A stretch of 37,340 nucleotides of DNA, from positions 1-37,340 of the IMG/VR virus record IMGVR_UViG_3300008448_000266. One strand, given 5' to 3'. This document shows positions 11,764 to 26,744 of the stretch, one piece after another. The translations under genes and the position numbers were made by a program. The stretch is from a virus. The first letter of the stretch is position 1. Each line of letters starts with the position of its first letter. A model generated the notes under the pieces. It was not told where the DNA came from and searched no databases. It saw only the letters and a program-made list of their open reading frames with translations.

Positions 11764-12540
11764 ATGAAAATAAGTCATGAAGTTCCTTTATGTTTATTAG
11801 AGGATAGTTTAGGTTTTAATGATTATGATTATGCCCTAGTGCATTTACTAGACAAAGATGAGGACTATGTTGATTTCTTTATGAAAGCAAAACAACAAGG
11901 TCGTTATATTATTTTAGATAATTCACTACATGAATTAGGAGAGGCATATCATGATAAAGGTTTATTACATTGGGTTGATAAATTGCGTCCTAATGAATTT
12001 ATTGTTCCTGATGTATGGGAAAATACAAATGCATCTATTGTTAATGCTAGAAAATGGGCTACAATTGAATTGCCTGAAGAAGTTACTAAAGTAGCAGTTG
12101 TTCAAGCTCAAAACTTTTTAGATGCTGTTGTTTGTTATCAAACATATAAAGATTTAGGTTATAAAAAGATTGCTTTTTCATATGGTGCTGAATATTATTT
12201 AGATCATTCTAATCATCCTAATAAAAACTTAGCTAAATCATTAGGTCGTATTCAAGTAATAAGTAGAATGTATGAAATGGGTTTGATTGATCCTAATGAC
12301 AGGGTACATTTATTAGGCTGCCAGGTACCACAAGAATTTAGTTGGTACAAAGATGCTGGATTTATTGAAACTATTGATACATCAAATCCTATTATGGCAA
12401 CTTTAGATGGTATTAAGTATGGTAGAAATGGTTTAACTGAAAAACCAAAATCTAATATGAATAATAATTTTTATATCACCGATATAGATTATGATTTATT
12501 GGATTATAATATATCAATATTTAGAGAATTATTAAAATAA
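11764..12540 (+). CDS. dpdA: DpdA/TGT-like DNA 7-deazaguanine transglycosylase
   Basis: 258 aa. It resembles the tRNA-guanine transglycosylase TIM barrel: ILDNSLHELGE (50-60) carries a candidate catalytic Asp (D52); FIVPDVWEN (79-87) and KIAFSYG follow; DRVHLLGCQVPQEF (179-192) then TIDTSNP (203-209) match the TGT 'LMGVG...FD..P' region, with D205. The TGT zinc cysteine set is not evident. Phage DpdA enzymes of this superfamily exchange guanine in DNA for a deazapurine. The same operon encodes QueC, QueD and QueE, with FolE nearby, which makes DNA modification the likeliest role. A tRNA role cannot be excluded from sequence alone. Confidence 0.62.
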   Translation: MKISHEVPLCLLEDSLGFNDYDYALVHLLDKDEDYVDFFMKAKQQGRYIILDNSLHELGEAYHDKGLLHWVDKLRPNEFIVPDVWENTNASIVNARKWATIELPEEVTKVAVVQAQNFLDAVVCYQTYKDLGYKKIAFSYGAEYYLDHSNHPNKNLAKSLGRIQVISRMYEMGLIDPNDRVHLLGCQVPQEFSWYKDAGFIETIDTSNPIMATLDGIKYGRNGLTEKPKSNMNNNFYITDIDYDLLDYNISIFRELLK

Positions 12541-12543
12541 GTT

Positions 12544-12699
12544 ATGAATAAAGTATTAAAAATCGTTTACAAATGTACCATTGGGATTAATATCCTAGCA
12601 GGTTTAGTTAGTATTATTAACCACAACTATGTTTTGGGAATTAACCAATTTCTAGTTGCTTGGTTTATGTTTATGTATTATAATGAAAGAAATAAATAA
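12544..12699 (+). CDS. 51-aa small membrane protein
   Basis: Begins MNKVLKIVYKCTIGINILAG. It has two hydrophobic stretches (CTIGINILAGLVSII and INQFLVAWFMFMYY) and ends NERNK. It starts 3 nt after the transglycosylase with AAGTTATG context. Function unknown. Confidence 0.6.
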   Translation: MNKVLKIVYKCTIGINILAGLVSIINHNYVLGINQFLVAWFMFMYYNERNK

Positions 12700-12702
12700 G
12701 TT

Positions 12703-12930
12703 ATGGAAGAAATGTTATCACTTTATGATTACTTAGGTAAAGCAGCAGGTAGAGAATTAGGAAACCAAGTTTACAAATCCGCTAGTGCTAAAAAAATCCA
12801 AGTAACAGAAAAACACGTATCAAATCCTGTTTATTCAGGTAAAATTTTAATGTATCCAAAATCATTTTTGGACAGTTATTTTAACCCTCAACCAGTGAAC
12901 AATTATGAACACGAAGACTTACCCTTCTAA
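12703..12930 (+). CDS. Small hypothetical protein with SSB-like C-terminal tip
   Basis: 75 aa. It opens MEEMLSLYDYLGKAAGRELG, and YSGKILMYPKSFLDSYF precedes a short tail ending YEHEDLPF. That end matches the acidic-LPF tip of this phage's gp32 (DDDDLPF) and the (D)DLPF/(D)DIPF tip of bacterial SSBs, which recruits replication and repair proteins. It may compete for, or recruit, SSB-interacting proteins (inference). It lies inside the deazaguanine operon. Confidence 0.7.
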   Translation: MEEMLSLYDYLGKAAGRELGNQVYKSASAKKIQVTEKHVSNPVYSGKILMYPKSFLDSYFNPQPVNNYEHEDLPF

Positions 12931-12934
12931 ACCA

Positions 12935-13066
12935 ATGAAAGATATTAATCCTGCTTGGGAAGCTGAGATTAAAAAACAATTAGATGCTATTTGGGAAAAT
13001 CGTTATCGCCTTAGCTTGTCTAATTTAGAAATGTTATGTAGATTAGCAAACAAAACAAAATTATAA
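12935..13066 (+). CDS. 43-aa hypothetical protein
   Basis: Begins MKDINPAWEAEIKKQLDAIW and ends LEMLCRLANKTKL; amphipathic and helical. It lies between tightly packed genes (4 nt after the previous stop, 1 nt before the next ATG). Function unknown. Confidence 0.6.
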   Translation: MKDINPAWEAEIKKQLDAIWENRYRLSLSNLEMLCRLANKTKL

Positions 13067-13067
13067 T

Positions 13068-13403
13068 ATGGAACCAAATACATTTTTACACAATGGATCA
13101 TCTTATGCTTTAGGTACATCAAACGCAACTATCCTTTCTAACCCTAGCAGTTATGCTTTAAACACACCAATTTCACAATCATTTAATTTAATACCACAAA
13201 ACACAGTTATGCAAAACAAAGTAGCAGTTTTCAAAGTAACAAGAGACGAAAACAACAAAATCACAGACACTAAGTTTATTAAAGAACTTTGGGTAGAAAC
13301 AAAAAATCAATCAGTAGAATTTCAAGTAGCTAGAGATAAAGATTTAGCTGACTATGATGCTAACGATTTATTTATTAAAACAATTTACACAGTAACATTT
13401 TAA
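13068..13403 (+). CDS. Hypothetical protein
   Basis: 111 aa. The first 45 residues are low-complexity Ser/Asn/Thr (SSYALGTSNATILSNPSSYAL contains two SSYAL repeats), followed by a beta-like half (KVAVFKVTRDENNKITDTKF ... FIKTIYTVTF). Its stop shares the A of the queC ATG. Function unknown. Confidence 0.7.
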   Translation: MEPNTFLHNGSSYALGTSNATILSNPSSYALNTPISQSFNLIPQNTVMQNKVAVFKVTRDENNKITDTKFIKELWVETKNQSVEFQVARDKDLADYDANDLFIKTIYTVTF

Positions 13404-14311
13404 TGAATAAACAAGCAGTATTGTCATTAAGTGGAGGTATGGATAGCTCCACGTTGTTGCTTCATCTACTTGCCAATGGCTATGAAGTGACAGCACTGTC
13501 TTTTGATTATGGACAAAAACATCGAGTTGAACTTGAGCGTGCTCAAGATTTAGTAAACTATTTAAATTTACACTTATTAACTAAAAACCATCCTCCATTA
13601 CCTAAAGGTGTTAGTATTGAGCAAGTACTTGGTAAACAACCTATTAATTACCAAGTAATTAAACTTGATGGATTGAGCCAACTACTCAATTCAGCACTTG
13701 TAACAGGTGGGGCTGAAGTTCCTGAAGGCCACTATGCTGAAGAAAATATGAAAGCAACTGTCGTACCTAATAGAAACAAAATATTTAGTAGTATAATTCA
13801 GGCAGTAGCCTTATCAATAGCAGATGCTAAAAACACGGACGTTCATATTGCGATGGGTATTCATGCTGGTGATCACGCTATTTATCCTGATTGTCGTCAG
13901 GAGTTTAGGGATATTGATTATCAGGCCTTTGTTGCTGGGAATTGGAATGCTGAAAGAGTTAGTTACTATACTCCTTATATAAACGGAGATAAATACTCTA
14001 TTTTAGAAGATGGTCTAAAATGTTGCGAAACATTAGGGGTTGATTTTGATGAAATATATAAACGTACAAATACATCTTATAAACCAATGCAACATTCAGT
14101 TTATTGGGAAAATGAACATGGTGAAACACTTCATTCAGTTGAATGGTTTAGTGATTACAAATCAGCATCTTCTGTTGAACGAGTAGAGGCATTTATTAAA
14201 TTAGGAAGAAAAGATCCTGTATCTTATGCCGATGAATTTGGCCCAGTAACTTGGGAGTACGTAAAAGAGTACGTATCGTCCGTTTTAGATGATTACCAAA
14301 AAACAGTATAG
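13403..14311 (+). CDS. queC: QueC-like 7-deazaguanine ligase lacking its zinc cysteines
   Basis: 302 aa, against about 220-230 for usual QueC. QueC turns 7-carboxy-7-deazaguanine into preQ0 with ATP and ammonia, through an amide. The P-loop SGGMDSS (10-16), SFDYGQKHRVEL, VPNRNKIF (121-128) and YPDCRQEF (161-168) are classic QueC. The zinc site is not: TCY is replaced by TSY (S225), and the CGxCxxC motif aligns with DYKSASS, so the ligand positions become D251, S254 and S257. Extra length lies in an insert around 60-115 and in a C-terminal tail from 265. The enzyme may stop at a different product or bind no metal (inference). Confidence 0.8.
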   Translation: MNKQAVLSLSGGMDSSTLLLHLLANGYEVTALSFDYGQKHRVELERAQDLVNYLNLHLLTKNHPPLPKGVSIEQVLGKQPINYQVIKLDGLSQLLNSALVTGGAEVPEGHYAEENMKATVVPNRNKIFSSIIQAVALSIADAKNTDVHIAMGIHAGDHAIYPDCRQEFRDIDYQAFVAGNWNAERVSYYTPYINGDKYSILEDGLKCCETLGVDFDEIYKRTNTSYKPMQHSVYWENEHGETLHSVEWFSDYKSASSVERVEAFIKLGRKDPVSYADEFGPVTWEYVKEYVSSVLDDYQKTV

Positions 14312-14504
14312 AAAATCCCAACCTTATCCCCAAATGTATATTGTGGTAAACAAAGCTGGAGAAGTATTCTCTGGCTTTGTACAAGGTTCTATTCAATGGT
14401 CCTATAATTGGTCTAATGCAAAACCACTATTTGAACAAAACACATCTTGGCTCCTGTCTCTAAATCCAGGAGCCGAGGTAATTAAAGAAGAAGAAATTAT
14501 ATGA
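14289..14504 (+). CDS. Small hypothetical protein
   Basis: 71 aa. The core MYIVVNKAGEVFSGF ... WSYNWSNAKPLF looks like a small beta domain seen in other phages; function unknown. ATG 14289 overlaps queC by 23 nt; an in-frame ATG at 14334 gives the bare core and is an alternative start. It overlaps the next gene by ATGA (14501-14504). Confidence 0.68.
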   Translation: MITKKQYRKSQPYPQMYIVVNKAGEVFSGFVQGSIQWSYNWSNAKPLFEQNTSWLLSLNPGAEVIKEEEII

Positions 14505-14737
14505 AAAAATTACATGAACAAAAAAGTATTATTGATCCTGAGAAGGTAATCAAAGTAGAACCGAAAATGGTTAGAGAAGATTTTAAACATCCAGATGCTA
14601 AAAAACACCAATTAGTTAGTTTTATTAAATCGGGTGTTAGAATAATTGGTTACACCTTTTTATTTTTTGACATTACTATGGCCGCAGTAATACTAATTGC
14701 AAGTGAGGCAATAGGGGTTTTAGAAGAATTAGTATAA
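14501..14737 (+). CDS. Small membrane protein
   Basis: 78 aa. The N-terminal half is charged and soluble (PEKVIKVEPKMVREDFKHP), followed by a hydrophobic segment around 45-70 (IIGYTFLFFDITMAAVILIA) and a short EELV end. Single pass, perhaps a hairpin. Coupled to the previous gene by ATGA. Function unknown. Confidence 0.7.
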   Translation: MKKLHEQKSIIDPEKVIKVEPKMVREDFKHPDAKKHQLVSFIKSGVRIIGYTFLFFDITMAAVILIASEAIGVLEELV

Positions 14738-14741
14738 TAAT

Positions 14742-15221
14742 ATGGCACAATCATACTTAAATTTTAAGCAAAACTTAAATGAGTCTGATCAAAAACTTTT
14801 AGAAATTGGACAACTTGTTGACCCATATATTAAAGATTTTATGTTTAATGAAGTAGGAAATACTATTTCTACCAATTTTAAAGATGATCAACATAATGAT
14901 ATTAGTGTTAGATTTCATAAATTTAAAAAAGAATCTAGTGGTTATGAAGTAGAATTCACAATTAATAATAAAAGTGCTGAAGCATTTAAAACAGATACAA
15001 AACATTTTTTTAAAATAATATCTACTGTTACACATGCTATAAATAAATTTATTGAAGTTTATAACCCAACACAATTATTCATTGAAGGAATGGATAAACC
15101 AAGTAAAGAAGGACAAAAAAATATAATATGGTTACAATATATTAAAGTTAATTTGGATGCTACTGATTATGTAATAGGAAACCATAAAAATGGATTTATG
15201 ATTCAAAAAAATACAAAATAA
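14742..15221 (+). CDS. Hypothetical protein
   Basis: 159 aa. The helical N-terminus (YLNFKQNLNESDQKLLEIGQ) leads to an alternating alpha/beta domain (ISVRFHKFKKESSGYEVEF, FFKIISTVTHAINKFIEVY, FIEGMDKPSKEGQKNIIW). No motif recognised. It lies 2 nt upstream of the thioredoxin gene. Confidence 0.72.
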   Translation: MAQSYLNFKQNLNESDQKLLEIGQLVDPYIKDFMFNEVGNTISTNFKDDQHNDISVRFHKFKKESSGYEVEFTINNKSAEAFKTDTKHFFKIISTVTHAINKFIEVYNPTQLFIEGMDKPSKEGQKNIIWLQYIKVNLDATDYVIGNHKNGFMIQKNTK

Positions 15222-15223
15222 AT

Positions 15224-15463
15224 ATGAAAAAATTAATATATTTTAGCGCTGGCTGGTGTCAGCCGTGTCGTACACTAGGTCCTATTATGGAACAAGTACG
15301 AGAAAAAATACCAGTAGAAAAAATTGATGTTGATAATGCTCCAGCAGTTGCGGCCGCTTATAATGTCCGTAACATTCCAACCGTAATTCTTGTGGAAAAC
15401 GGAGAAGAAATTCGTAGATTTACAGGTGTAAAACCGTTAAACGATATCTTAAATTTTATATAA
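15224..15463 (+). CDS. Thioredoxin
   Basis: 79 aa, a minimal thioredoxin fold: active site WCQPC (11-15), cis-proline NIPT (P51), FTGVKPLNDIL at the end. It is shorter than E. coli TrxA (109 aa) because the first strand and helix are missing. A likely use is to reduce the C-terminal cysteine pair of the class II reductase. It lies 2 nt before queD. Confidence 0.88.
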   Translation: MKKLIYFSAGWCQPCRTLGPIMEQVREKIPVEKIDVDNAPAVAAAYNVRNIPTVILVENGEEIRRFTGVKPLNDILNFI

Positions 15464-15465
15464 AA

Positions 15466-15927
15466 ATGAATAAATATATTTCAACAAAAGTATTTGATGG
15501 ATTCAGTTGTGTGTTCCGTCAATGGAAAGCAGAGGGTACACACTGTAAATTCCTTCATGGTTATGGAGTAAGCTTCAAAGTATGGTTTGAGGGTGAACTT
15601 GATGAAAGAAATTGGGTTTGGGACTTTGGAGGTATGAAACGTGCCAAAGGAACTATCGATGGTATGAATCCTAAAGAATGGATGGACTATATGTTTGATC
15701 ATACTCTAATTATTGCCGAAGATGATCCATATTTGGCTGGATGGAAAGCTATGGGTGAACATGGATTGGCTCAAGTAAGAGTTATTCCTGCTGTCGGTGC
15801 TGAACAATTTGCTAGATTTATATATGAAAAACTTAATACATTTATTAATGAAGAAACTAATGGACGTGTTAAAGTTATTCAAGTAGAATTTATGGAACAC
15901 GGAAAAAACAGTGCAATTTATAAATAA
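15466..15927 (+). CDS. queD: QueD-like 6-carboxytetrahydropterin synthase
   Basis: 153 aa. It converts dihydroneopterin triphosphate to 6-carboxytetrahydropterin, the second step of deazaguanine synthesis. It has FDGFSCVFRQW (10-20), then THCKFLHGYGVSF with the catalytic Cys four residues before the first His (CxxxH), DFGGMK, and FDHTLIIAEDDP with the catalytic Asp-His pair. In E. coli QueD the zinc is held by the His of FSAAH and both His of HGH. Here these align with Phe, His and Tyr, so two of three ligands differ. I recall the same FRQW/HGY form in other phages, so it is probably a stable subfamily, not decay. Confidence 0.8.
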   Translation: MNKYISTKVFDGFSCVFRQWKAEGTHCKFLHGYGVSFKVWFEGELDERNWVWDFGGMKRAKGTIDGMNPKEWMDYMFDHTLIIAEDDPYLAGWKAMGEHGLAQVRVIPAVGAEQFARFIYEKLNTFINEETNGRVKVIQVEFMEHGKNSAIYK

Positions 15928-15932
15928 TAAAA

Positions 15933-16748
15933 ATGGATAATACTAAAGTAACAGAAAAACAATGGAACATCCAGGAACCTGGTCGTATCACAGATTATAA
16001 TAAAAAATTACCTGTACTAGAGGTTTATACATGTGTTCAATCAGAGGGATCACGTCAAGGTAGACCCACAGTGGCAATCAGAACAACTGGTTGTACCCAC
16101 AGATGTTGGTTTGGTGCCGGTGGTTGGTGTGATTCTTGGTACACGAGTATTCACCCTGAAAAAGGTATTTATACCTTTAATGACATTATTAAAATCTATG
16201 ATGAAAACCCTCATATTAGAGAAATGATGTTGACTGGTGGTTCACCTACTATGCAACCTGACCTTTGTAATGAATTAACTCACTTTGCTTATGAGAGAGG
16301 TATTTTCATTACTATTGAAACTGAAGGATCACATTTTATTAAAACAGATCACCAAATTGGTTTAATTTCTTTATCACCTAAGTTTAGTAATTCTGTTCCT
16401 AAGCTTGATGTTAATACACCAATGGGTAAGTTAGTTGACCAAAAAATGATTGATCAACACAATAAATTCCGTTTAAATTATGAAGCAATGCAAATGATGA
16501 TGGAATATCACGGTGATTATCATTTTAAACCTGTATGGGATGGTACTGATGAAAACTTTAATGAAATTGAAGAATTTAGATTAAAGATGGATATTCCAAA
16601 ATGGAAAACCTGGTTGATGCCTGCTGGTGATACTAGAGAAACATTAATTGAAATGTATCCTATCTCAATTGAAAAATGTATGCAAGTAGGTTATAATTGG
16701 ACTGGTAGAGACCACATTATTGCTTACGATACTAAAAGAGCAGTTTAA
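15933..16748 (+). CDS. queE: QueE-like 7-carboxy-7-deazaguanine synthase (radical SAM)
   Basis: 271 aa. A radical SAM enzyme that rearranges carboxytetrahydropterin to carboxydeazaguanine. VYTCVQSEGSRQGRPTVAIR (31-50) is the usual QueE opening. The cluster motif is C54-x3-C58-x7-C66, unlike the canonical CX3CX2C. MLTGGSPTMQP (99-109) is the SAM-binding GGEP motif with Ser for Glu. It is longer than most QueE (about 210-250 aa). It follows queD by 5 nt and shares a TAATG overlap with the thioesterase gene. Confidence 0.85.
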   Translation: MDNTKVTEKQWNIQEPGRITDYNKKLPVLEVYTCVQSEGSRQGRPTVAIRTTGCTHRCWFGAGGWCDSWYTSIHPEKGIYTFNDIIKIYDENPHIREMMLTGGSPTMQPDLCNELTHFAYERGIFITIETEGSHFIKTDHQIGLISLSPKFSNSVPKLDVNTPMGKLVDQKMIDQHNKFRLNYEAMQMMMEYHGDYHFKPVWDGTDENFNEIEEFRLKMDIPKWKTWLMPAGDTRETLIEMYPISIEKCMQVGYNWTGRDHIIAYDTKRAV

Positions 16749-17149
16749 TGGACTTACTTTCAACCCACCCAGTTAAAAAACTAGATTTAGGCTTTCACGG
16801 CAATCTATTCGGCGGCAAATTGCTTAGCTGGATAGATGCCGCTGTTGCCGCTTATGCAATGGAAAAATGCAGATCACAAAATATGATTACAATTGCCATT
16901 GATGAATGTGTATTTAAAAAACCTGCCCGGGAAAAAAACCTAGTAAAAATTTATGCCGAAATGGCTAAAGTAGGAAATACATCTGCTACCTTTAGAGTAG
17001 AGGCAAGAGCCTATAATGTATTTAGAGGAGATGAAGTTACTTTATTATCTACCAACATGACATTTGTTAGAGTAGATGATGAAGGGATGCCTATCTCAAT
17101 ATCCAAACAGGTTAAAGACCAATTTTACACACCCGAATCAAAATTATGA
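16748..17149 (+). CDS. YciA-like hotdog acyl-CoA thioesterase
   Basis: 133 aa. NLFGGKLLSWIDAA (19-32) is the hotdog thioesterase signature with candidate catalytic D30. It also has ECVFKKPAREKNLVKIYAE and the strand TSATFRVEARAYN. It would hydrolyse acyl-CoA thioesters. An unusual metabolic gene for a phage, placed between queE and a membrane protein gene and coupled to both by short overlaps. Its substrate and purpose are unknown; lipid or envelope remodelling is one guess. Confidence 0.82.
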   Translation: MDLLSTHPVKKLDLGFHGNLFGGKLLSWIDAAVAAYAMEKCRSQNMITIAIDECVFKKPAREKNLVKIYAEMAKVGNTSATFRVEARAYNVFRGDEVTLLSTNMTFVRVDDEGMPISISKQVKDQFYTPESKL

Positions 17150-17550
17150 TATCATTAATATTATGTGCATTGGCAGGAGCCTTAAATGCCACCTACGAAA
17201 TTTTATTTGTAAGCTTTAAATATAGCATTTTCAGCAAATTAAATCCTCAATACTGGGACCCTAAAACATCCTGGGTATACAAATGGAAATATCCTTTAAG
17301 ACCGGCTACCAATCGTTGGTATTATTTTGGGTTTATTCCCCGTCATGAGGAAAGGTTTCCTTATTCATCCACTATTTTTGTTTGGGCAACTGATGCCTGG
17401 CATTTATTTAAGGCAATAATGCTGGTATGTTTGATGTCGGCAATGGTTTTATATTCACCTATTATTACACCCTTTGTTGATTTCTTTTTACTTTATGTTG
17501 CTTTTACATTTGTTTTTACAATTTTTTATGATTATATTTTAAGACGATGA
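17146..17550 (+). CDS. Membrane protein of unknown function
   Basis: 134 aa. An N-terminal hydrophobic segment (ISLILCALAGALNATYEILFV), a polar aromatic loop (WVYKWKYPLRPATNRWYYFGF), and two C-terminal hydrophobic segments (AIMLVCLMSAMVLY and FVDFFLLYVAFTFVFTIFY). About three membrane passes. ATGA overlaps on both sides. Adjacency to the thioesterase may hint at a lipid-related pair (inference). Confidence 0.72.
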   Translation: MISLILCALAGALNATYEILFVSFKYSIFSKLNPQYWDPKTSWVYKWKYPLRPATNRWYYFGFIPRHEERFPYSSTIFVWATDAWHLFKAIMLVCLMSAMVLYSPIITPFVDFFLLYVAFTFVFTIFYDYILRR

Positions 17551-18794
17551 ATCGATTAGACGAACAATACCAAAGATTACTTCAAGACATTATTGAATTT
17601 GGAGTAGAAAAAAAGGATAGAACAGGAACAGGAACTAAATCTTTATTTGGTTATACTATTAGACATAATATGAGAAATGGTTTCCCATTACTTACAACCA
17701 AAAAAATGGCTTGGAAACAAATAGTAACAGAGTTAATATGGTTCTTAAGAGGTGATACTAATATCAAGTATTTAGTTGATAATGATTGTCATATTTGGGA
17801 TGGTGATGCGTATAAGAATTATGCCGCTAAAACATCGATGGATGCTGATGGACAATTTACAAAAGAAGAATTCATCAATAAAATCAAAACAGATGATAAG
17901 TTTGCTAAGAAGTGGGGTGACCTTGGTAGAATCTATGGGGCGCAATGGAGAAGTTGGGACACCAGTATTCCAGTAGACCAAGTTGTAGAAGTAAGTGATG
18001 ACGGTGAATTTGAACTAGAATACAATTCAATAGACCAAATCCAAAACCTAATCAATGAACTTAAAACAAATCCTGACTCAAGACGATTAATGGTTTCGGC
18101 TTGGAACGTAGGTGAATTAGACCAAATGGTATTACCTCCTTGTCATTATGGATTTCAAGTTTATACTAGAGAGTTGACATTTGCTGAACGTTTAAACTTA
18201 TTAGGTAATATTAAAGCAGAAGATATAAATAAGGATTGGTTTGAAAAAAATAATACTCCTAAACGAGCAATCTCTTTAATGTGGAATCAAAGATCGGTTG
18301 ACACCTTTTTGGGTCTTCCCTTTAATATAGCCAGCTATGGTTTATTACTTGAGATTATTGCTAAAGAAGTTAATATGGTACCTGATGAATTGATTGGTAA
18401 TTTAGGTGATACTCATTTGTATTTGAATCATATTGAACAGGCTAAAGAACAAATTGGTAGAGATTATACATTAGATGAACGACTTAATATGGTTTCTGAG
18501 GAAATACAAAAAGAATTTAGTAATGGTATAGTTAATTTACCTAATTTTCCAAACACTCCAGTTTGGAGTGATGGTGGGAAAATGTCCTGTTTAGATGATT
18601 TTGGAGTACCTCGTAGAACAAGAGAACCATTTGAATTACCTAAATTGAAAATAAATACTGAATTTTGGCAAACAGAATCAGGTGAATGCGGAATAGGGCC
18701 TTTAAAAACAAATTTGATGGGATTTGAAATTGACGATTTTACTTTAGAAAACTATCAATCACACCCAACAATTAAAGCACCCTTGTCAAATTAA
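17547..18794 (+). CDS. thyA: Thymidylate synthase ThyA with insertions
   Basis: 415 aa, against 264 in E. coli. It makes dTMP from dUMP. DRTGTGT (24-30) contains the phosphate-binding Arg; also present are LIWFLRGDTN, the SRR pair near 179-180, LPPCHYGFQ with nucleophile C199, LPFNIASYG with N260, and GDTHLYLNH with H290. Extra sequence is inserted after FQVYTREL (about 209-240) and in a long C-terminal part (about 303-390). All key residues are present, so it should be active. It is last in the deazaguanine operon. Confidence 0.93.
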   Translation: MNRLDEQYQRLLQDIIEFGVEKKDRTGTGTKSLFGYTIRHNMRNGFPLLTTKKMAWKQIVTELIWFLRGDTNIKYLVDNDCHIWDGDAYKNYAAKTSMDADGQFTKEEFINKIKTDDKFAKKWGDLGRIYGAQWRSWDTSIPVDQVVEVSDDGEFELEYNSIDQIQNLINELKTNPDSRRLMVSAWNVGELDQMVLPPCHYGFQVYTRELTFAERLNLLGNIKAEDINKDWFEKNNTPKRAISLMWNQRSVDTFLGLPFNIASYGLLLEIIAKEVNMVPDELIGNLGDTHLYLNHIEQAKEQIGRDYTLDERLNMVSEEIQKEFSNGIVNLPNFPNTPVWSDGGKMSCLDDFGVPRRTREPFELPKLKINTEFWQTESGECGIGPLKTNLMGFEIDDFTLENYQSHPTIKAPLSN

Positions 18795-18795
18795 A

Positions 18796-18827
18796 TTTGG
18801 TTTTATTAAATTATTTTATTATATTTA
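18796..18827 (+). promoter_or_regulatory. Promoter P7
   Basis: TTTG 18796-18799 (ATTTGGTTTTATT), 20-bp spacer, TATATTTA 18820-18827. The ATG is at 18842, after a 14-nt gap ending AAAAAGTT. No terminator hairpin is seen between thyA and this promoter. Confidence 0.7.
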
Positions 18828-18841
18828 CAAAATAAAAAGTT

Positions 18842-19147
18842 ATGACATATGAAAATTTTCTAAAAGTAATTTTACAATTACAAAAACAAGACAGAATTAT
18901 AGATAACCTCTATAAAAATAATGTTGACTTGATTGAGTTTGTAGATCCTTACCACGGCATTATACAAACTCTCATGAAAGAAATCTACGGCGAGGAAGGA
19001 GTTGATTGGTTTAACTGGTTCTGTTATGAAAATGATTTTGGAACAAAAGGATTAGAGGCATGGGATGAAAATAAAAATCGAATCTGTTACAGTCATGAAA
19101 CACTGTGGCAATATTTAGAAACACTTAAAAAAGAAAATGGAAAATAA
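18842..19147 (+). CDS. Hypothetical phage protein
   Basis: 101 aa, helical. It has DPYHGIIQTLMKEIYGEEG and VDWFNWFCYENDFG, then CYSHETLWQYLETLKK. It looks like a protein common in large phages but without a known role. It is first gene of the operon leading to folE and dcd, and overlaps the next gene by 11 nt. Confidence 0.75.
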   Translation: MTYENFLKVILQLQKQDRIIDNLYKNNVDLIEFVDPYHGIIQTLMKEIYGEEGVDWFNWFCYENDFGTKGLEAWDENKNRICYSHETLWQYLETLKKENGK

Positions 19148-19340
19148 TTTTAAACCAGACTCGATTGTACAAGCAATCATTGATAAGTTTGCCGCTAGAG
19201 CAAAAATGGGAAAAGAAAAATACGGTGTTACTATGGACCGTGATGATTTAGAATTTTGGGATTGGTTAAACCATTTTCAAGAGGAATTAATGGATGGTAT
19301 AGTATATGCTGAAAAATTAAAACAACAAATTAAAAAATAA
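19137..19340 (+). CDS. Small helical protein, possibly MazG-like
   Basis: 67 aa: FAARAKMGKEKYG, then DDLEFWDWLNHFQEELMD and GIVYAEKLKQQ. The EExxD helix and KYG pattern recall short all-alpha NTP pyrophosphatase-like phage proteins that trim nucleotides. A full set of metal ligands cannot be confirmed, so the function is tentative. Its nucleotide-metabolism neighbours agree with the idea. Confidence 0.6.
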   Translation: MENNFKPDSIVQAIIDKFAARAKMGKEKYGVTMDRDDLEFWDWLNHFQEELMDGIVYAEKLKQQIKK

Positions 19341-19352
19341 TATTTATACGAT

Positions 19353-19646
19353 ATGAAACGTATAACACCAGAACAATTTGAATCATATTTAAAATTTGAA
19401 GACCATTTCTATGCTTTCTTTTCTTCCGATACTTGTAGACATTGTCAAACAATCTCACCGGTTTTAGAAAAAGCATTTTCCTCTTCAAAAACACCATTAT
19501 ATAATGTGAATCAAGAAGATCCTTTTTTAAATGAGGAAATGGGTGTTGAATTTTACCCAACAGTTTTAGAAGTTAAAAATGGAAAAGTTATAAAAAAATA
19601 CGTAGGTTTTAGCAGATTAGTTCATGAATACCAAAATTCTATTTAA
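19353..19646 (+). CDS. Thioredoxin-like protein
   Basis: 97 aa. FFSSDTCRHCQTISP has a CxxC site (C28-R-H-C31), and EFYPT carries the cis-proline (P69). CRHC differs from the WCGPC/WCQPC of classical thioredoxins, so redox potential and partner may differ. It is the second thioredoxin-type gene in the window and overlaps the phosphoribosyltransferase by 23 nt. Confidence 0.8.
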   Translation: MKRITPEQFESYLKFEDHFYAFFSSDTCRHCQTISPVLEKAFSSSKTPLYNVNQEDPFLNEEMGVEFYPTVLEVKNGKVIKKYVGFSRLVHEYQNSI

Positions 19647-20142
19647 CGAGCAGCAAATTCAAGATGCTGTAAAAACAATTTCTTACGATATAAACACCAC
19701 CACAGATTACTGGAGTGAAAAAAATGTATTTGTTGGAGTACTAACAGGTGGTTATATGTTTTATTCTGATTTGGTAAAACAAATCAAATTTCCTATTGAA
19801 TGTGATTTTATCCGAACCAAATCATATGTAACAAATCAATCCCAAGTTAAACCTGTGGTAACCAAAGATTTAGAGATAGATGTAGAGGAAAAAAACATAT
19901 TCCTAATCGATGACATTCTAGATTCAGGCAATACAATGAAATTTTTATTGAATCACTTTCTAAGCAAAAAACCACTTAGTATAAATATTGTAACCTTATT
20001 AACTAGAGAGGGAATAAAGTTTGAAAATAGATTTGGAAAAATGTATACTGGTTTATATATTGAGGATGACAGTTGGGTTGTAGGATACGGAATGGATGAT
20101 AACGGTTTGTATCGCAACACCCCTTATATATTTGTAAAATAA
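19624..20142 (+). CDS. Hypoxanthine phosphoribosyltransferase-like purine salvage enzyme
   Basis: 172 aa. The PRPP-binding loop is NIFLIDDILDSGNT (91-104). FVGVLTGGYMFYSDLVKQI matches the first conserved loop of HPRT, and DFIRTKSY and the C-terminal DDSWVVGYGMDDNGLYRN segment fit the purine-binding end of the family. It would join hypoxanthine or guanine to PRPP to give IMP or GMP. It lies 8 nt before folE, whose substrate is GTP, so it may feed that pathway (inference). Confidence 0.85.
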   Translation: MNTKILFNEQQIQDAVKTISYDINTTTDYWSEKNVFVGVLTGGYMFYSDLVKQIKFPIECDFIRTKSYVTNQSQVKPVVTKDLEIDVEEKNIFLIDDILDSGNTMKFLLNHFLSKKPLSINIVTLLTREGIKFENRFGKMYTGLYIEDDSWVVGYGMDDNGLYRNTPYIFVK

Positions 20143-20149
20143 GTTTTAT

Positions 20150-20848
20150 ATGACTAACGATAATAAAAAAACATTTACCCTCGATTTAGAGGTAGTTAAA
20201 ATGGGTTATGCCAATGGAATTGCTCCTGGTTTCCCACTTACTGAAAAAGAAAAATGGTCTATGGTAGACGAAGCAGCAGAGGCATATGGTAAATTCTTAG
20301 ATGCTTTAGGTTGTGATTGGAGAAATGACCCCAATTCCTCCGATACTCCTAGACGAGTAGCAAAAGCATATGTATTTGATCTATGGAAAGGTAGATACGA
20401 TTCAATGAGTGATATTACCTCATTCCCATCAGATGGTTATGATGGTATTGTAATTGAACGTAATATTCCTCTAACTAGTATGTGTTCACACCACCACCAA
20501 ACAATTGGAGGTGTAGTTCATATTGGTTATGTAGTAGGTGAAAATGGTTCTGTAATTGGTTTAAGTAAATTAAATCGTATTGTAGAACATTTTGGACGTA
20601 GGGGTGCTATTCAAGAACAATTAACATCCGCTATTCACCAAGCAGTAGATAAAATTTGTGAAAACAACAAAGGTGTTATTGTCACTGTAGTTGCAACTCA
20701 CAATTGTGTTTCCTGTAGAGGTGTAAAACACCAAGGTGCTTCAATGGTTACCACCAAAGCCTCTGGAGTATTTTTAAACAATGAAAACCAAGCACGTAAA
20801 GAATTTTTTGATTCATTAAAAATAAACAACGGAGGACATCAGATATGA
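20150..20848 (+). CDS. folE: GTP cyclohydrolase I
   Basis: 232 aa. It converts GTP to dihydroneopterin triphosphate, the first step toward deazaguanine (and folate). DTPRRVAKAYVFDLWKG (65-81) and IPLTSMCSHHHQTIGGVVHI supply zinc ligands C112 and H115; THNCVSCRGV supplies C186. GLSKLNRIVEHFGRR and the C-terminal MVTTKASGVF are conserved. Unlike the QueC and QueD variants, its metal site is intact. Its last codons contain GGAGG ahead of the next start. Confidence 0.93.
   Translation: MTNDNKKTFTLDLEVVKMGYANGIAPGFPLTEKEKWSMVDEAAEAYGKFLDALGCDWRNDPNSSDTPRRVAKAYVFDLWKGRYDSMSDITSFPSDGYDGIVIERNIPLTSMCSHHHQTIGGVVHIGYVVGENGSVIGLSKLNRIVEHFGRRGAIQEQLTSAIHQAVDKICENNKGVIVTVVATHNCVSCRGVKHQGASMVTTKASGVFLNNENQARKEFFDSLKINNGGHQI
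20831..20835 (+). promoter_or_regulatory. Unusually good Shine-Dalgarno for dcd
   Basis: GGAGG lies 9 nt before the dcd ATG at 20845, inside the end of folE. Most genes here have no such site and start in A-rich context, as is usual in Bacteroidota, so this is an exception. It may also just be the Asn-Gly-Gly codons of FolE. Confidence 0.4.
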
Positions 20849-24868: not shown

Positions 24869-25267
24869 ATGAAAAAATTATTACTTTTATTATTAATCAT
24901 TCCGTCTAAGATTTTTGGACAGTATGTAACAGTTCCTACTCATTATGATTGTGAACATGCTGCTAATCATATTTTAAAAGGACATCTTCCTATGTTTTTA
25001 TCTGATTCAGTAAAATTAGTTACTGAAAAGAAAAAAGAAAGATATGTTACTGATTATGGTTATCCTATTGATAGAGTTAAATCTAAAATTGATAAAGTAT
25101 TTCTTAAGGGAAAACCGGAATTTACAAGTAGAACCAATGGTGGATATATTTTTTCTATAGCCGTTATTGATAAAAATGATGATACTAAGGTAATAAACTA
25201 TGTGACGTTTCATGTGGATGCTTGGACTCAAAAAATAGTTGAAATTGAAATTTTATTAGGAGAATAA
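24869..25267 (+). CDS. Secreted hypothetical protein
   Basis: 132 aa. A typical Sec signal peptide (MKKLLLLLLIIPSKIFG, cleavage likely before Q18), then a small domain with DCEHAANHILKGHLPMFL and GGYIFSIAVIDKNDD. The ...GQ junction is a common Bacteroidota form. It starts 1 nt after the hydrolase stop. Function unknown. Confidence 0.75.
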   Translation: MKKLLLLLLIIPSKIFGQYVTVPTHYDCEHAANHILKGHLPMFLSDSVKLVTEKKKERYVTDYGYPIDRVKSKIDKVFLKGKPEFTSRTNGGYIFSIAVIDKNDDTKVINYVTFHVDAWTQKIVEIEILLGE

Positions 25268-25269
25268 AT

Positions 25270-25416
25270 ATGCCTTGGTGGGATAAATACTTTTTTCAAA
25301 TATACTGGGGTTGTATAGCTGGAATATTTGCATTGAGTGCAGTTTCATATACTCATAAGCCTAAAACTAAAAAACCTAAGTTTGAAACAATTGAATACAA
25401 AGACACAATAAAATGA
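25270..25416 (+). CDS. 48-aa membrane peptide
   Basis: Begins MPWWDKYFFQIYWGCIAGIF, an aromatic N-terminus running into one membrane helix (GCIAGIFALSAVSY), then a Lys/Pro tail (HKPKTKKPKFE). It lies between two secreted-protein genes and overlaps the next by ATGA. Function unknown. Confidence 0.6.
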   Translation: MPWWDKYFFQIYWGCIAGIFALSAVSYTHKPKTKKPKFETIEYKDTIK

Positions 25417-26231
25417 AAAAATTAATATTAATGTTAATGGTGCTATTTACCGGAATGGTAAATGCACAATGTGATTTTTCTAAAGTAAACTTGAAACAAT
25501 GGAATCAAGGTACTTACTACAAATTTCAACTAACTGGATGGGATACAGATTCATGTAAAAATTACATGTTTATGGTCTATGATTTCCAAAACAAGAAAAC
25601 AGACACTATTCCTGATAAAAGTGGTATAGTTGAAGTTAGTTTTAACCTCCCAGGTGAATACAAGTTGTATGTAAAGTTGTGGGACAAATGCAAAAAGTGT
25701 GATACAGCAATGTATCGTATAATAAAAGTTGCTGGTTGGAAACCAACGGCAAATGTAAAGTTTATTAAAAAGACTTGTGATAGTATGTGGTTTGAAATGC
25801 CCGCAATGAATACTAAAGATACTTGTTGGACTAACTACTTTTATGTTTATGGAGGTAAAGAATTAGATGATTTAACTACTAAAGAATGGACTACAATGAG
25901 TGACTATGATTTGTATATGTATTATAGTTTTGATGAAAAAGACTTATTAGCTAATCCTGAATCAAGAATACTAAAATATAAATTTCCTAAAGATGGTAAA
26001 TATTTAGTTATTGGTCAGTATTACAATAAATGTCTAAATCAAGACACAGTTATATTTACTCGTCATACTATTGATTGTAATATATCATCTGTAACTGAAT
26101 TTAATAAACAACAAGTTTTACCTGTAGGTACTTATGATGTATTAGGCAGACCTGTAAATGAAATGAAAGAAGGTCAAGTATACATTGAAGTTCTTAATAA
26201 TGGTACTCGCAGAAAAATACTTAAAAAGTAA
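25413..26231 (+). CDS. Secreted protein with T9SS-type C-terminal sorting domain
   Basis: 272 aa. The signal peptide MKKLILMLMVLFTGMVNA is cleaved before Q19. The mature part is Cys-rich and beta-like (FNLPGEYKLYVKLWDKCKKC, FPKDGKYLVIGQYYNKC). The end, YDVLGRPVNEMKEGQVYIEV then GTRRKILKK (241-272), follows the type IX secretion type-A sorting domain pattern 'YD..G..V......G.Y.v....g..kKi.k'. In Bacteroidota that domain sends proteins across the outer membrane to the surface. The domain is short, so the call is probable, not certain. A T9SS substrate encoded by a phage would be unusual. Confidence 0.72.
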   Translation: MKKLILMLMVLFTGMVNAQCDFSKVNLKQWNQGTYYKFQLTGWDTDSCKNYMFMVYDFQNKKTDTIPDKSGIVEVSFNLPGEYKLYVKLWDKCKKCDTAMYRIIKVAGWKPTANVKFIKKTCDSMWFEMPAMNTKDTCWTNYFYVYGGKELDDLTTKEWTTMSDYDLYMYYSFDEKDLLANPESRILKYKFPKDGKYLVIGQYYNKCLNQDTVIFTRHTIDCNISSVTEFNKQQVLPVGTYDVLGRPVNEMKEGQVYIEVLNNGTRRKILKK

Positions 26232-26232
26232 A

Positions 26233-26270
26233 AATTTCCCCACTTCTGGGATACCAGATTTGGGGAATTT
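26233..26270 (+). terminator. Long hairpin terminator of the exported-protein operon
   Basis: TTCCCCA..TCTGG pairs with CCAGA..TGGGGAA around a GATA loop, with a 2x2 internal mismatch. It is followed by ATTTATATATTTA and not a clean T run. It sits between the genes at 25413 and 26292. Confidence 0.72.
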
Positions 26271-26291: not shown

Positions 26292-26744
26292 ATGAAAAAA
26301 TTTATCTTATCTGTAGTTGCTTTACTAGGTTTAGTATTCACTACAAACGCTCAAATGATCGTAGACGCTGAAATGTTCAAAGCTAACCCTAACCAGTTTA
26401 TGGGTAAAGTTGTAACAATCAAAAATGTAGTTTACAAAGGAAGTTCAATGACTCCAGGTTCACCACAAGGTGGAGCAGTTAGCTCACCATCAGGATCAAC
26501 AGGTGCAGGTGCTCCAGTAGGTGTAGCTGGACCAAGTAGTGGTAAATCTCAATCAGCTTATTGTAATCCAAATCCACAATTTACTTTAACTAAGTGGATC
26601 TTAGGACCTAACAATGATTTATGTGTGCAAGTTGATACTCGTGTTAAACCAATGGTTGACATGTGTCAAGTAGGTGGAGTAGTAAAATCTATCTCTTTCC
26701 GTTGCACTCCTACTATGTATGTTGCTACTCGTGTAGAGAAGTAA
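26292..26744 (+). CDS. Secreted protein with Gly/Ser/Pro linker
   Basis: 150 aa. The signal peptide ends ...TTNA with cleavage before QMIVD, typical of Bacteroidota. FKANPNQFMGKVVTIKNVVYKG resembles the start of an OB-fold. A low-complexity Gly/Ser/Pro/Ala stretch (about 55-85) interrupts the domain, which resumes with FTLTKWILGPNNDLCVQVD. Five Cys in the mature part may form disulfides. Function unknown. It stands alone between two terminators. Confidence 0.75.
   Translation: MKKFILSVVALLGLVFTTNAQMIVDAEMFKANPNQFMGKVVTIKNVVYKGSSMTPGSPQGGAVSSPSGSTGAGAPVGVAGPSSGKSQSAYCNPNPQFTLTKWILGPNNDLCVQVDTRVKPMVDMCQVGGVVKSISFRCTPTMYVATRVEK

Follow-up and report, generated by a model that had tools for sequence, protein, structure and literature searches.

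The gene and its surroundings

The DNA that was analysed (the window) is an entire virus record of 37,340 bases. The open reading frame named in the original prediction is present on the + strand and encodes a 272-residue protein (Table 1), which begins with MKKLILMLMVLFTGMVNA followed by QCD and ends with GTYDVLGRPVNEMKEGQVYIEVLNNGTRRKILKK; the tail on which this analysis centres is TYDVLGRPVNEMKEGQVYIEVLNNGTRRKILKK. Both the sequence and a rule-based scan revealed a clear Sec signal peptide, as had been predicted, so that the Sec type I signal expected of T9SS cargo is present, and this signal is kept in the relatives described below. A lipoprotein was considered and rejected, because Cys20 follows Q in this protein and K in most relatives (AQC or AKC), not a small residue, and no lipobox is formed.

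Table 1. Features of the locus, in window coordinates; residue numbers refer to the 272-residue protein
Feature	Position	Strand	Basis
SGNH/GDSL hydrolase with N-terminal membrane segment	24172-24867	+	PF13472, 6.3e-9; often found beside the family, in either order
132-residue protein with signal peptide	24869-25267	+	Adjoins the family in several relatives
Small membrane-protein ORF, 48 codons	25270-25416	+	Its stop and the start of the gene under study overlap (ATGA), read from the sequence
Gene under study, 272-residue Ig-like protein, predicted to be secreted, with short T9SS-type tail	25413-26231	+	ORF; conserved phage-only family
Sec signal peptide, residues 1-18, predicted cleavage between NA and Q	25413-25466	+	Sequence; rule-based scan; kept in relatives; AlphaFold2 models an N-terminal helix at low confidence
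Ig/FnIII/PKD-like domain 1, residues 26-106	25488-25730	+	AlphaFold2; Foldseek match to tandem FnIII domains; PF00801 (PKD) in 4 of 32 members, best 3.5e-6
Ig-like domain 2, residues 116-220	25758-26072	+	AlphaFold2
Flexible linker, residues 221-236; expected site of the cut by the sortase PorU	26073-26120	+	pLDDT below 50 at 226-228; position analogous to mapped cleavage sites (PMC11969387)
Short T9SS CTD-like tail, residues 237-272; strands 237-241, 256-261 and 266-270	26121-26228	+	AlphaFold2 (whole protein and tail alone); profile tests; structure search
Motif B-like loop YDVLGRPV, residues 241-248	26133-26156	+	D242 and G245 invariant in 32 members; equivalent to the RgpB motif L-beta3-beta4 with FDMNGRR (PMC11285876)
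Motif D-like strand GQVYIEV, residues 254-260	26172-26192	+	Family alignment; alignment to CTD strands 6-7; canonical GxY not kept family-wide
Motif E-like basic C-terminus RRKILKK, residues 266-272	26208-26228	+	K268 invariant; basic residue of the last strand essential according to PMC11969387 and PMC11285876
Stable RNA hairpin immediately after the gene	26236-26267	+	-21.4 kcal/mol, z -4.4, 0 of 200 shuffles

The gene is placed between the DNA polymerase gene and GroES/GroEL, outside any structural cluster. The ATGA overlap of stop and start suggests that it may be translationally coupled to the 48-codon ORF, and the SGNH/GDSL hydrolase could modify acylated surface glycans. The hairpin sits between the gene and the next ORF, is followed by an A/T-rich, not T-only, stretch and is possibly a terminator or an mRNA 3' end; Rfam gave no match in the window. 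A 150-residue protein with a signal peptide (TNA before Q) and a Gly/Ser/Pro-rich insert is encoded at 26292-26744, and no homologue of it was found in the loci that were compared.

A conserved family confined to phages

A search by way of the GDSL neighbour, followed by a family alignment, yielded 32 distinct members of the family, and more were found later by the tail alone. The family is present on more than 40 contigs, exclusively of phages, and no member was found among isolated phages. The nearest relative of the window's protein (L001) is 61% identical over its length, tail included. In 84,980 bacterial and archaeal species, each represented by one genome, there was neither a family member nor a relative of the cohesin cargo described below, and a bacterial origin was rejected on this ground. 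Members are 167, about 280 or about 375 residues long, with a signal peptide and a tail common to all three; because the length differs between the same two ends, it suggests that the number of Ig-like units varies from one to three per member.

The Cys-rich character ascribed to the protein was borne out by seven cysteines (C20, C48, C93, C96, C122, C138 and C207) that are invariant in the 32 aligned relatives. The same alignment shows no variation at D242, G245 and K268 of the tail and conservation of 90% or more at R246, V248 and G264, and the tail itself is retained in 31 of the 32 distinct members. Purifying selection acts on the tail, where dN/dS lies well under 1, and dN falls far short of dS in the body too. 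Searches with the tail profile found the short tail on this one family and not on unrelated phage proteins, so that the idea of a general tag on such proteins was dropped. A match of a single member to CARDS_D3 (PF22346) lay below the cut-off and was taken as chance, comparison with Rhs/YD repeats gave nothing beyond short YD..GR matches, and a search of PDB sequences with the whole family returned nothing useful.

Profile comparison of the tail with T9SS signals

The C-terminus had originally been assigned to the T9SS type A sorting pattern, with a profile search set in advance as the test. The resemblance of the motifs stood and the type A assignment failed: neither PF18962 nor TIGR04183 matched the 272-residue protein or its tail, PF18962 matched in no frame of the window, leaving the 37-kb record without a canonical CTD, and it matched none of the 32 aligned family members (L054, discussed below, is not among these). 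As the curated models span about 75 positions and the tail has about 36 residues, this negative result is compatible with a shorter signal. The fold agrees with the profile search, in that AlphaFold2 gives three strands in about 36 residues and not the seven-stranded Ig-like sandwich of about 70-80 residues that defines type A.

Shorter signals are known from Prevotella intermedia, in which Ye et al. (2025; PMC11969387) described 48 'short' CTDs of 43-55 residues that form one three-stranded sheet corresponding to strands 3, 6 and 7 of long CTDs. In these the glycine of motif B and the basic residue of motif E are absolutely conserved, motifs B and D are 1-6 residues apart, and in vivo cleavage and glycosylation were shown for some of them; according to the authors, P. 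intermedia is the only species reported to have both kinds of CTD. In RgpB, the loop with FDMNGRR, and its glycine, are required for secretion (PMC11285876). The phage tail resembles the short CTDs in lying at the extreme C-terminus behind a linker, in forming a single three-stranded sheet within about 50 residues of the end of domain 2 in the AlphaFold2 model (43-55 from the cleavage site in P. intermedia, and from the expected site here), in the invariant motif B glycine with an adjacent basic residue (G245 and R246), in the basic motif E residue of the last strand (K268) and in the few residues that separate B from D. It differs in belonging to a phage protein of a non-Prevotella lineage and in the unconserved GxY of motif D: the glycine of GxY/GxN is present in the window's protein as G254 and missing in most members, with the hydrophobic strand conserved.

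To quantify the likeness, a CTD reference profile was made from 30 plasmid-borne Bacteroidota CTDs. The tail profile scored 20.1 against the full-length profile, which none of 300 column shuffles reached. A composite target, in which strands 3, 6 and 7 of the 30 bacterial CTDs were joined according to the published equivalence, gave a probability of 91 and a score of 26.1; none of 600 column shuffles came up to this value (best 17.4), the reversed profile scored 7.9, and 11.2 was the highest score among body windows of this family. The gain of the composite over motif B alone appeared only with a 4-column gap, other spacings scoring 19-20, and because of this limit the part of the match that covers strands 6-7 is suggestive. 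The match to motif B is robust.

Predicted structure of the tail

The AlphaFold2 model of the whole protein (mean pLDDT 85.2) contains two Ig/FnIII-like sandwiches, a linker with pLDDT below 50 and a separate three-stranded sheet, and the tail modelled alone adopted the same three strands (pLDDT 86.5). When the tail model was compared with 350,542 PDB chains, the top one of 376 Foldseek matches was 8gl6_D, the CTD of RemA on the F. johnsoniae translocon, at an E-value of 0.64, which is not significant, and a probability of 0.41. Alignment of the same candidates with VIA-align placed four T9SS CTDs in the top 14 rows (Z 2.9 for RgpB, 2.8 for RemA with 24% identity over 42 residues, 2.7 for NucA and 2.6 for RemZ), in company with unrelated small sheets of equal or higher Z. 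Each of these E- and Z-values is weak, as obtained with a predicted model of 50 residues. Since our CTD profile picks out no more than about 15-17 T9SS CTDs in the 177,635 distinct PDB sequences, a recurrence of T9SS CTDs among the structure matches of the modelled tail would be unlikely to arise by chance. Compared with the type A domains of RgpB, RemA and NucA, the tail has a similar motif B (YDVLGRP against FDMNGRR), similar basic residues in the last strand and matches in fold and profile, whereas the PNP start and four of the seven strands are absent from it and the curated models do not detect it.

Canonical T9SS signals in a family member and in sister phages

One protein (L054:10001-10939) belongs to the family over its signal peptide and body and ends in a long type A CTD, not in the short tail. 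This CTD has the PNP start and the segment WPNGVYYLWV, with PF18962 at E 4.3e-5 and 24.2 bits and TIGR04183 at 7e-4, both a few bits under the cut-off. Because L054 is homologous over signal peptide and body, the short tail and the canonical CTD share, as judged from sequence, one place in homologous proteins, and we regard this replacement as the strongest single argument for a T9SS signal.

Canonical signals are also encoded elsewhere in the 50 sampled records, each of which contains a family member or the tail. Type A CTDs above the cut-off were found in 15 of them, mostly on a protein of about 630-660 residues whose examined members combine a signal peptide with cohesin domains, and an above-cut-off type B CTD in 5, on proteins of 746-1728 residues; 8 of the 11 records of at least 100 kb carried one type or the other. 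In one case (L132:1088-6123) a 1512-residue protein with an above-cut-off type B CTD splits the family gene after its first domain, and the leftover short tail forms a separate fragment downstream. A cultured, syntenic relative, Flavobacterium phage vB_FspM_immuto (MW353176; host Flavobacterium sp. LMO8), has 27 ORFs in common with the window. Its type A cargo scores 39.3 bits, above the cut-off (immuto35A_15, L076:12691-13422, MW353176.1), and is annotated only as cohesin domain-containing. The main text of the Baltic Sea Flavobacterium phage paper makes no mention of T9SS, cohesin or immutovirus.

The two neighbours of this gene, immuto35A_13 and immuto35A_14 (a C-type lectin and a hypothetical protein), have signal peptides too. 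The family of about 630-660 residues with cohesin domains and a type A CTD (L041:75-1979, L043:12905-14800 and similar) has partial-length kinship with two adjacent immuto ORFs. A distinct phage protein of 329 residues (L131:2381-3370), outside the short-tail family, has a type A-like CTD (E 2.4e-6 to the CTD profile).

Interpretation

We conclude, with a probability of roughly 0.75, that the gene encodes a phage-borne T9SS cargo with a minimal signal, which would be shown on the host surface or released from it. The proposal of a T9SS-tagged, Cys-containing surface protein encoded by a phage is thus well supported as regards the signal and not as regards a regular type A domain (about 36 against 70-80 residues). 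In the mechanism that we envisage, Sec would export the protein, the signal peptide would be cut after NA and the disulfide-bonded Ig-like domains would fold in the periplasm. The last 36 or so residues, with YDVLGRPV and RKILKK, would be recognised by PorV in the SprA/Sov pore and would take the protein across the outer membrane, a step modelled on the short-CTD proposal for P. intermedia; a cut in the linker would finally separate off the Ig-like body, which would stay on the host surface or be released from it. We infer the host T9SS, the shuttle used, the binding of PorV, cleavage, surface display and function alike. Evidence against this reading consists of the missing curated T9SS match, the unconserved GxY of motif D, a composite score that depends on spacing, weak structure scores, a tail confined to a single family and the fact that the window, a 37-kb fragment, has no canonical CTD of its own.

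Some of these points would equally suit a protein that Sec exports to the periplasm or the outer membrane, with a three-stranded module that is an ordinary small beta domain and merely resembles T9SS motifs. Three-stranded sheets are common, unrelated folds stand equally high in VIA-align, and YD..GR motifs occur in Rhs/YD repeats as well, which together with the lack of a curated profile match and the weak motif D speak for such a domain. Against it, a canonical CTD replaces the tail in L054, no shuffle among the 600 or the 300 reached the observed scores, the top PDB match is a T9SS CTD and bona fide T9SS cargo is encoded in sister phages, so that we consider an ordinary beta domain improbable. 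We hold it very unlikely indeed that the protein is a virion component, such as a tail fibre or a head decoration made of Ig-like domains. Ig/FnIII-like domains are common in phage tails and several of the viral fold matches are tail proteins, but a Sec signal peptide is at odds with such a role, the position between DNA polymerase and GroES/GroEL is outside any structural cluster, and the structural genes of the syntenic phage immuto lie far off.

As to what a T9SS cargo of this kind would do, the tandem Ig-like domains and the failure to detect a catalytic domain suggest binding or masking, and the protein most likely acts at the surface as a non-enzymatic binder or mask, changing either how other phages adsorb or how the infected cell adheres. 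The originally proposed effects, blocking of other phages or a change in gliding or adhesion, are plausible candidates. Because phage-resistant isolates of F. columnare carry mutations in T9SS genes (PMC9233685), the surface that the T9SS builds appears relevant to phage adsorption, and a cargo on this pathway could plausibly affect the adsorption of other phages. It is also quite possible that the cargo helps the infected cell to adhere, aggregate or capture nutrients instead of excluding phages: its domains are of the Ig/PKD-like binding type with no catalytic domain found, and related T9SS cargo has cohesin domains, whereas the resistant F. columnare could be read as favouring exclusion. 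A wider and rather doubtful extension is that large T4-like Bacteroidota phages run a T9SS-borne remodelling of the surface, in which the Ig-like family with its minimal signal, the type A cohesin protein and the giant type B gliding-type cargo would exclude rivals that need T9SS-delivered receptors.

If the T9SS reading is correct, phages exploit the host T9SS with a signal cut down to three strands, which would show what part of a CTD suffices for recognition and would extend short CTDs beyond Prevotella. Counts of phage-encoded T9SS cargo would also be too low, since tails of this type escape the curated models. T9SS genes are a mutational path to phage resistance in Flavobacterium (PMC9233685), which makes phage cargo on this system a natural candidate for superinfection exclusion. 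Phage-encoded T9SS cargo has been published before, as sorting-domain enzymes and a PA14 protein of Cryophage (PMC7468147) and as a BACON ORF with a T9SS sorting domain in a crAss-like phage (PMC6949934). These share with the family described here that phage genes carry host T9SS sorting signals, and they are proteins with the T9SS sorting domain, whereas the present family is compact, Ig-like and equipped with a minimal signal. The new element is that a conserved family of phage proteins carries the short signal; a family of this kind beside long type A and type B cargo was not found in the searchable literature, which leaves most subscription journals uncovered.

The host of this large virus appears to be a Flavobacterium-like bacterium, by analogy with the cultured syntenic relative that grows on Flavobacterium sp. 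LMO8. The two phages are alike in their syntenic replication/queuosine/GroEL region, and immuto differs in encoding canonical type A cargo without the Ig-like short-tail family. Positions 11764-20848 of the window hold queuosine/7-deazaguanine-type genes that match QueC, QueD, QueE, FolE and a DpdA-like transglycosylase of immuto, which suggests that the phage DNA may be modified.
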